Assembly (NCBI GenBank): GCA_001179885.1
Contig: CVSD01000016.1
Coordinates: 1-64,000, forward strand
DNA: 64,000 nt
Source of the DNA: Candidatus Pelagibacter communis
GTDB taxonomy: Bacteria > Pseudomonadota > Alphaproteobacteria > Pelagibacterales > Pelagibacteraceae
Reading direction: 5' to 3'
A model generated the notes under the pieces. It was not told the origin of the DNA and ran no database searches. It saw only the letters and a program-made list of their open reading frames with translations. How positions within the stretch are numbered: the first letter of the stretch is position 1; each line of letters starts with the position of its first letter. The position numbers and the translations under genes were made by a program. Positions 45,162-47,125 of the stretch are shown piece by piece.

Positions 45162-45360
45162 TTTATTAAATATATTTGCGTATAAAGCGCATAAACACTA
45201 ACTTTTTTACACATCAAAATTTAAAAAAAAATAATTTATTTTAAAATAAATTTTGAAAATTTTAACTTTAATTAAAGAATTGACATAACGGTTATAAAAA
45301 AATAAAAATAAACTAATATCGAATCAATTTGATTCGTTTAACTAAAAAAGGGAGCTAAAG
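45162..45360 (+). promoter_or_regulatory. Upstream region of the lysine-rich minigene
   Basis: 199 bp without a gene. It contains a perfect 20-bp A/T palindrome (45233-45252), a -35-like TTGACA (45280-45285) followed by an A/T-rich -10 region, an interrupted palindrome CGAATCAA-T-TTGATTCG (45320-45336) and a strong ribosome site GGGAG (45350-45354) at good spacing before the ATG. The second palindrome lies in the likely 5' UTR, where it could be an operator or a hairpin. No terminator for the ligase gene is obvious. Confidence 0.55.
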
Positions 45361-45438
45361 ATGCCTAAGAGAAGAAAAAAAGCAAAGAAAGCTAAGAAAA
45401 AAGCTAAGAAAAAAGCTAAAAAAAGAAGAAGAAGATAA
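45361..45438 (+). CDS. Tiny lysine/arginine-rich basic protein, 25 aa
   Basis: A complete 25-codon frame from ATG to TAA. The product has 13 Lys, 6 Arg and 4 Ala among 25 residues: it begins MPKRRKKAKK, continues with AKKK repeats, and ends with RRRR. At DNA level the unit GCTAAGAAAAAA is repeated in tandem. A strong Shine-Dalgarno, a promoter-like -35 and a strong terminator 23 bp after the stop all support expression as a single-gene unit. Composition resembles histone H1 tails, so nucleic-acid binding is likely; I do not recognise a named family. Confidence 0.75.
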   Translation: MPKRRKKAKKAKKKAKKKAKKRRRR

Positions 45439-45457: not shown

Positions 45458-45504
45458 TAAAAACGCTTCTCATAACGATTTACGTGTGAGAGGCGTTTTT
45501 TTTT
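45458..45504 (+). terminator. Strong bidirectional terminator after the minigene
   Basis: An 11-pair stem AACGCTTCTCA (45462-45472) / TGAGAGGCGTT (45487-45497), with one G-T pair, a 14-base loop and nine T (45496-45504). On the opposite strand the stem is followed by TTTTTATAAAAAG, so it can also serve the convergent methyltransferase gene. It is the strongest intrinsic terminator I found in the window. Confidence 0.9.
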
Positions 45505-46273: not shown

Positions 46274-47125
46274 TTATATAGGTTCGTTATCGTTATCAGC
46301 TATAGTATCTTCTTCAGTTGTGTTCACATCTGAAGTGGTTTGTTTTGTTGGTGTTGGTGATGGGGATGGAGAGGCTAAATTTCTTTTTAAAGCTTTATCT
46401 AATTTTTTCTGTGTATCTTCTTGTGATAAGTTTAATATTATTTGAAATTCAGACAATATTCTTTCATAGGCTTTTTCAAATAATTGTCTTTCACTGTATG
46501 ATTGATCAACCATTAAATCATCCCCTTTATTTAAATCTCTTACCACCTCAGCTAGTTCATAAATTTTTCCAGATGAAATTTTTGCCTCATATTCTTGCGC
46601 CCTTCTGCTCCACATGGATCTTTTTATTTTAGGTTTACTTTTAAGAATTGAAATACATTTATTGACTTGGTTAATGGTTGCAAGGGGTCTTAGATGTGAT
46701 TGTTTATTTACTGGGACCATTCCATTTGCTTTATCTTTTTCAAATTTAATGACATAAGTTTCAACGTCTATCCCACCTATATTAATTTTTTTAAATTCAG
46801 TTATTTGTCCAACTCCGTGTTTTGGATATACTATATAATCTTTAATTTTATATTCTCTTTTTTCAGTTTCTTGTTTTTTTACTTTTTTGATCTCTGGTTT
46901 TGTTTCGGTGTTTTTAGAAATTCTTAAATTATCTGATTTTACCTCTATTTTTTTTTCAATATTGTTAGTTATTTTTTTTTTCCTAATTTTAGGAATCTTT
47001 TTAATTTTTTTTGTACTTTTTTTATTTTTTGTAATTTTTTTTGAAGTTATTTTGTTTTTAACTTTTTTTTTATTTTTTTTTTTAAAGGTTTTCTTTAAAA
47101 TATTTTTCAAACTTATTTTTTTCAT
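46274..47125 (-). CDS. carD: CarD-family transcriptional regulator with basic N-terminal extension
   Basis: Binds RNA polymerase beta and stabilises open complexes. The CarD/TRCF-RID domain starts near residue 92 ([17 protein letters not shown]), followed by the helical DNA-binding part to about 250 ([24 protein letters not shown]). The first 60 residues contain 28 lysines and no structure I recognise. An 11-base A-run in the coding strand (47073-47083) lies in this tail. The start overlaps fdxA by 44 bp; no later Met exists before the CarD domain. fdxA-carD adjacency is typical of Alphaproteobacteria. Confidence 0.9.

Follow-up and report, generated by a model that had tools for sequence, protein, structure and literature searches.

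The window analysed here is a stretch of 64,000 nucleotides from the genome of a Candidatus Pelagibacter communis (G000, an incomplete assembly of 667,038 bases in 82 contigs). At positions 45361-45438 of its forward strand lies a complete frame of 25 codons, whose product, MPKRRKKAKKAKKKAKKKAKKRRRR, has Lys or Arg at 19 of 25 residues (76% basic), with Ala as its other main residue. A first-pass annotation, made from the letters alone, had described this frame as a coding gene with expression signals of its own, and conservation, synteny and codon pattern in relatives strongly supported that description. Shuffling of the ORF's own bases gave a mean Lys/Arg content of 51%, and shuffles free of both stops and acidic residues made up 1% of 2,000.

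Homologous ORFs were read at 91 loci of the genus (63 distinct sequences, 20-35 aa), most of them taken from the best matches of one search and from one further set of loci, so that they do not form a random sample. Their 2,375 residues are drawn from seven amino acids, Lys, Arg, Ala, Met, Thr, Pro and Ser (the last found twice), and include not one Asp or Glu. Insertions and deletions among them are in frame. In 83 same-length ORF pairs with up to four differences, pairs that are not independent of each other, codon positions 1, 2 and 3 differed 14, 57 and 148 times, respectively. AAG supplied 29% of Lys codons, against 12% in long ORFs of the window, and GCT supplied 80% of Ala codons, against 44%; these codon shares fit a well-expressed gene. 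The first-pass annotation had stated that a frame not conserved in close relatives while the terminator was, or substitutions ignoring codon structure, would point to a non-coding RNA. We made that comparison, and found the frame kept and the differences biased to the third position. The 25-codon frame is a real, conserved protein gene.

The gene was convergent to carD (46274-47125, minus strand; CarD/RID and CarD_C domains, Pfam PF21095 and PF02559) at 91 of 91 genus loci. The gap between the ORF and the carD match had a median of 163 nt over these loci and measured 938 nt in the window, where a TylF/macrocin-O-methyltransferase-like gene (PF05711; 45536-46210, minus strand) lies between the two. 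Among the 91 loci compared, that methyltransferase gene was present in this genome alone, and is therefore probably a recent insertion. The CarD protein of the window has a very Lys-rich N-terminal extension of about 80-90 residues, a second basic tail beside the peptide gene.

Beyond the genus, a search of 30 genomes from other genera and from family f2 located carD in 27. An intact Lys/Arg/Ala(/Pro) ORF followed directly after the carD 3' end, on the other strand, at 26 of the 27 loci; in the exception, L081, a one-base shift had occurred in an A-run. The shortest of these ORFs has 21 aa (MAKRRKKAKKKKAKKRRRRRR) and the longest, which contains KAAPKKK repeats, 91 aa; one of them (L096) starts with GTG, and those of f2 differed from the genus in nucleotide sequence. 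No such ORF was found beside carD at 40 other alphaproteobacterial loci, hand-picked from 99 genomes with a CarD_C match and in several cases ending at contig ends; two weak basic ORFs among them (L139, L144) were dissimilar. Among the matches listed in titled records, the start-site pattern belonged to Pelagibacterales in 72 of 80 loci. The peptide gene is order-wide and keeps a fixed place beside carD. In a literature search on SAR11 topics, with most subscription journals and supplements outside its scope, no title or abstract dealt with the peptide gene or with a target of the RNA family RF01814 considered below.

Alignment of 47 genus loci, two of them shortened on the 5' side, revealed a common layout: TTGACAT, an A-rich -10 region, a hairpin of the form ACGAATC-loop-GATTCGT or close to it, AGGGAGCTAAAGATG (with an AAAATG variant in L046), then the frame and, after it, a terminator resembling AACGCTTCTCAT...GAGAGGCGTTTTTT. 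A probable promoter, in which TTGACA is followed by a -10-like TAAAAAT, occupies 45280-45309 of the plus strand. A pattern scan by itself placed promoters at chance level (20 promoter-like sites in the region, 18.3 expected), and the assignment is based on conservation of TTGACAT and of the A-rich block and on their near-fixed distance from the hairpin; the TTGACA element of the first-pass annotation lies at 45280 and is retained in relatives. The hairpin, CGAATC-AATTT-GATTCG at 45320-45336 (plus strand), appeared in foldings and was present at 87 of 91 loci. In the 84 loci where both elements were found it begins 38-41 nt past the first base of TTGACA, and with so constant a spacing it should form the 5' end of the RNA. 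Both of its arms contain GANTC, the target of CcrM-type methylases. One GANTC site has been lost in each of L028 and L029 with most of the hairpin pairing kept, so that a role of the hairpin in RNA seems likelier.

This hairpin is one of two upstream palindromes reported from the window letters. The other, at about 45176-45192, was borne out in part: its left arm TTGCG was not retained in most relatives, but a block resembling GCGCATAAACATTAACTTTTTT was kept in many. In the 47-locus alignment this conserved block spans 45180-45208 (plus strand); GCGCATAAACATTAACTTTTTT matches once in the window, with 0.03 matches expected, and the block could be a regulator site or the transcript end of the upstream gene. 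At this block, relatives carry a TTAT...ATAA inverted repeat.

The ribosome-binding site and start codon, GGGAGCTAAAGATG, lie at 45350-45363 (plus strand), and the strong Shine-Dalgarno seen there at first reading is part of the layout that recurs in the 47 aligned loci. Downstream of the frame, an intrinsic terminator (45460-45504, plus strand; hairpin 45460-45499 followed by a T-run) is conserved. At -20.5 kcal/mol it was the lowest in energy of the hairpins before at least five T that our script found in the window, the next being at -15.8, which agrees with its earlier ranking as the window's strongest terminator. It also folds on the minus strand (-14.8 kcal/mol). A simple consensus terminator scan did not list the 45460-45499 hairpin and listed the 5' hairpin alone, on the minus strand. 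The gene is thus probably a compact monocistronic unit made of promoter, 5' hairpin, strong Shine-Dalgarno, ORF and terminator.

The opposite strand of the start site gave a weak Rfam match to RF01814 (26.1 bits, E 0.024). With 26.1 bits against a gathering cut-off of 55, the window copy was rejected as an RF01814 RNA in its own right, being only the complement of one; other Rfam matches in the region besides rhtB were judged to be chance. Following up the weak match, we located the genome's genuine RF01814 element, outside the window (G000:C69:13907-13989, 82.8 bits). This 'rhtB' element was found in Pelagibacter by Meyer and colleagues in 2009, and its rhtB-gene context was called largely conserved (PMC2704228). 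In the section of that article devoted to it, the motif is placed among the less well-supported ones, the rhtB, proC and liv neighbours are discussed and no target is named; in passages of PMC6337395 and PMC11225332, rhtB denotes the gene only. Of 79 genus genomes, 75 gave an RF01814 score above the cut-off. The element of this genome is placed immediately ahead of the start of a LysE/RhtB-type gene, and the flanks of the element vary between genomes.

The hairpin loop of RF01814, on the strand modelled by Rfam, carries the reverse complement of GGGAGCTAAAGATGGCTAAG. Counting of GGGAGCTAAAGATG in the 79 genus genomes gave two copies in 61, one in 16, none in 2 and never more than two, and the reversed control pattern matched nowhere in the same 79 genomes. 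Wherever both loci were read, one copy was the peptide gene and the other the RF01814 element. The two loci are unlinked, standing for example at 926,622 and 1,188,149 of the same contig in G012. A duplex between the loop and the mRNA of the window gene was calculated at -34.1 kcal/mol, whereas 500 shuffled loops averaged -14.5 and went no lower than -23.0. The proposed pairing site coincides with GGGAGCTAAAGATG (45350-45363) and is supported by copy number, covariation and duplex energy. Pairing would extend past the start codon, with one C:C mismatch at 45364 and more pairs at 45365-45369, and the duplex of the gene start site with the RF01814 RNA reaches -36.2 kcal/mol with the mismatch included. 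RF01814 therefore has the extended complementarity to the start of an unlinked mRNA that characterizes a trans-encoded sRNA.

Both loci were read in 34 genomes, and at one position, G or A, they never disagreed: 12 genomes had A in both, 22 had G in both and none was discordant. Over the whole 14-base site, 32 of the 34 were concordant (A-type at both loci in 12, the common form at both in 20), the exceptions being G182 and G190. The A-type variant, GGGAGCTAAAAATG, was found in 20 of 300 genus genomes, and with G214 added, 12 have it at both loci; G037 and G214, which lack any copy of GGGAGCTAAAGATG, carry GGGAGCTAAAAATG at both gene and RNA. For six of the 20 genomes the sole match was a chance one in a coding gene (L199, L204, L208, L210, L215, L218), and these were left out of the covariation table. 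Also left out, as one-locus genomes with no second match within two mismatches, were G396 and G583 (gene only) and G693 (RNA only). Nine inexact second matches (L321-L325 and four more) were read; one proved to be the peptide gene of G190 and eight were not the gene.

On a tree of the 91 genomes, built from partial carD and acyl-CoA synthetase sequences with 7 of 91 rows under half filled (two of these A-type, G037 and G407), five G/A changes fell at each locus. On well-supported branches, 3 of 3 paired changes agreed (p = 0.25, the minimum possible with three pairs); with three such pairs only, independent covariation is thin. Partner covariation of the kind looked for in a trans-encoded sRNA was thus found at the G/A position, and not at codon 2, where CCT (Pro) in the gene faces GCT in the RNA and gives a C:C mismatch in 15 of the 32 genomes whose two loci entered this comparison, this one included. 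In G190 the gene (L321) reads TGGAGCTAAAGATG, with TGGAG where the RNA copy has GGGAG; this first-base mismatch, at the duplex edge, was the only one found in the 14-base site other than G-U. In G182 the gene is of the common form, while base 2 of the RNA has changed in a way that leaves a G-U pair provided the antisense strand is the one transcribed, and not otherwise; its RNA has more mismatches beyond the AUG. Among the 79 genomes, nine with the RNA yielded no gene start site within two mismatches (G132, G172, G198, G209, G211, G222, G234, G235, G242), and four with the gene yielded no detectable RF01814 (G009, G127, G176, G215).

The strand from which the element is transcribed was judged on 63 elements: 30 best-score loci of 75, 17 hand-picked with low-scoring ones preferred, 5 from the inexact-match search and 11 of A-type, a set that is not random. 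Of 504 stem cells, 493 were Watson-Crick; the remaining 11 all read as G-U on the antisense strand but as A-C on its complement, although they sit at two positions and several share ancestry, so that they represent fewer than 11 events. Just upstream of the hairpin on the antisense strand, most of the 63 elements have a -10-like TGATATTAT or similar box. A run of at least five T soon after the hairpin was present in 21 of 63 on the antisense strand and in none on the other. On the sense strand, the frame opened by the loop AUG closes three codons later in several genomes (L152, L166, L177), and for this reason we rejected a reading of the rhtB element as a start site that is translated in its own right. 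The G-U pattern, the -10-like box, the T-runs and the broken sense frame together favour RF01814 being an antisense transcript. Since T-runs were limited to 21 of 63 elements, many of the hairpins may belong to the leader of the next gene.

What the peptide does can be approached from its composition. With 25 residues, most of them Lys or Arg, it should be disordered. That its composition is conserved while the number of repeats is unstable, and that its end is rich in Arg, suggests a disordered binder of polyanions and not a protein with a fitted binding site; composition and repeat turnover are best read as those of an H1-like peptide that would bind polyanions. The gene would then yield an intrinsically disordered Lys/Arg/Ala peptide resembling a histone H1 tail or a protamine. 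Its most likely role would be to bind and condense polyanions, in the first place DNA, and possibly RNA or polyphosphate. RF01814 would be expressed as a single-hairpin RNA whose loop pairs with the Shine-Dalgarno, the AUG and the next codons of the peptide mRNA, and this pairing would block 30S binding and so repress translation. Taking gene and RNA jointly, we consider it probable, though well short of certain, that an H1/protamine-like polyanion-binding peptide has its translation held down in Pelagibacter by a trans-acting antisense RF01814.

A precedent exists in Chlamydia, where translation of HctA (Hc1) is blocked by the trans-encoded IhtA, an RNA whose loop covers the AUG (PMC4355289). 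There, as proposed here, a small and very basic protein is controlled by an RNA loop over its start codon, repression being demonstrated in Chlamydia and predicted in Pelagibacter. IhtA is described with a 7-nt pairing and three predicted stem-loops (PMC4355289), whereas RF01814 would pair over 14 nt and more with a single hairpin; HctA has two domains with a dimerising N-terminus (PMC2848022), whereas the SAR11 peptide is tail only, and no homology between the two was detected. We propose, by analogy, that the peptide and RF01814 work like the HctA/IhtA pair.

Repeats of a similar kind are known in Hc2 (HctB) and in BpH1 of Bordetella, whose Lys/Ala/Arg/Thr/Pro repeats vary in number, in frame, between strains (PMC2848022). 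Lys/Ala-rich repeats with in-frame variation in number, a trait of the HC1/HC2 type, are likewise present across the peptide homologues. Hc2 is, however, larger (165-237 aa, PMC2848022, against 20-91 aa in the SAR11 family, which has no Pfam match). The KAAPKKK repeats of f2 homologues recall the H1-like KPAA-type repeats of AlgP in Pseudomonas, where they form the C-terminal domain (154 aa) of a larger protein that binds DNA and is located on polyphosphate granules (PMC9239181); the repeats of AlgP are thus part of a larger protein, and the function of the SAR11 peptide is a prediction. No DNA-binding family profile in Pfam or NCBIfam, HC1 and HC2 included, was matched by the peptide or by 7 homologues. 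No Pfam or NCBIfam family of any kind was matched by the window peptide (E up to 10) or by 7 homologues of up to 91 aa (E up to 1), in searches whose HMMER filters may lose short low-complexity queries.

The first-pass annotation had also offered a ribosomal-type peptide, and the strongest of the competing explanations is indeed a small basic protein that belongs to the ribosome or associates with it, comparable to bTHX, bS22 or bL37 and produced along with ribosomes. Size, basicity, the strong Shine-Dalgarno, a transcription unit of its own and the well-expressed pattern of Ala codons all suit such a protein, and bTHX, bS22 and bL37 are equally tiny and very basic. They have, however, a fixed length and sequence, while the SAR11 family varies from 20 to 91 aa, changes its repeat number and matches no profile, so that it shares neither of the two marks, profile match and fixed length, of a small ribosomal protein. 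This explanation is less likely than a polyanion-binding peptide, and we regard it as unlikely.

Somewhat less probable still is an action in the reverse direction, in which the mRNA would control the RNA or the rhtB leader, its start site acting as a sponge or target mimic, and the peptide would be of secondary importance. The position of the element directly before the LysE/RhtB-type gene, in a context reported as largely conserved (PMC2704228), is consistent with this, and so are the two thirds of examined elements without a terminator-like T-run. Repression of the peptide by the RNA is better suited to a pairing site that coincides exactly with Shine-Dalgarno and AUG, to element flanks that differ between genomes and to conservation of the peptide in genera where the RNA was not detected.

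That last distribution also bears on a type I toxin-antitoxin-like pair, in which a harmful basic peptide would be silenced by the antisense RNA, as a small peptide and an RNA complementary to its start site might suggest. Type I systems have linked or overlapping genes and a hydrophobic toxin, whereas here the loci are unlinked, as in G012, the synteny is fixed and the peptide is 76% basic; homologues occurring where no RNA was detected make such a pair very improbable. A non-coding RNA with a fortuitous frame, which hairpins at both ends and the conserved leader could suggest, was rejected on the in-frame indels, the absence of acidic residues from 2,375, the third-position bias and the homologous ORFs of a second family despite its different nucleotide sequence.

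The H1/protamine-like peptide under antisense control would bear on several questions. It proposes a target and a mechanism for RF01814, an RNA family described in 2009, in an article whose section on the motif names neither (PMC2704228). It adds a conserved protein family to SAR11, from a gene shorter than the limit commonly used by gene finders. That lower limit is usually set at about 90 nt, and the composition of the peptide is such that trypsin would leave hardly any usable fragment. SAR11 bacteria are thought to have little regulation. If the proposal is true, a streamlined cell controls the state of its nucleoid or its polyanions by a conserved RNA switch on an H1-like peptide, and one of the ocean's most abundant organisms has a riboregulated nucleoid or polyanion switch.

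Control of the peptide may take another form in other genera. RF01814 over the cut-off was found in none of 24 genomes of other genera, and among the matches listed for 26 genomes no second site of the gene's own sequence was seen, extra matches being judged by their letters; these genera may have a partner of another sequence. We give about an even chance to the fuller proposal, in which Pelagibacter makes a minimal chromatin- or protamine-like peptide consisting of a tail only and controls its synthesis through an antisense RNA dedicated to it, the rhtB RNA. The HctA/IhtA logic would then have been reached independently, and sister genera g5, g7 and g11 may use a CTCC in cis. A switch between cis and trans control across genera is possible, as suggested by predicted folds of the leaders. 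In those of g5, g7 and g11 (L084-L086, L088, L089, L091-L093, L095), CTCC folds onto the start-site region, and the mean unpaired probability of the first five site bases is 0.21-0.45, compared with 0.91-0.99 in g8, which has no such pairing. Elsewhere, with two f2 leaders left out, values fell between, at 0.43-0.61 in this genus and at 0.45 and 0.85 in g6.
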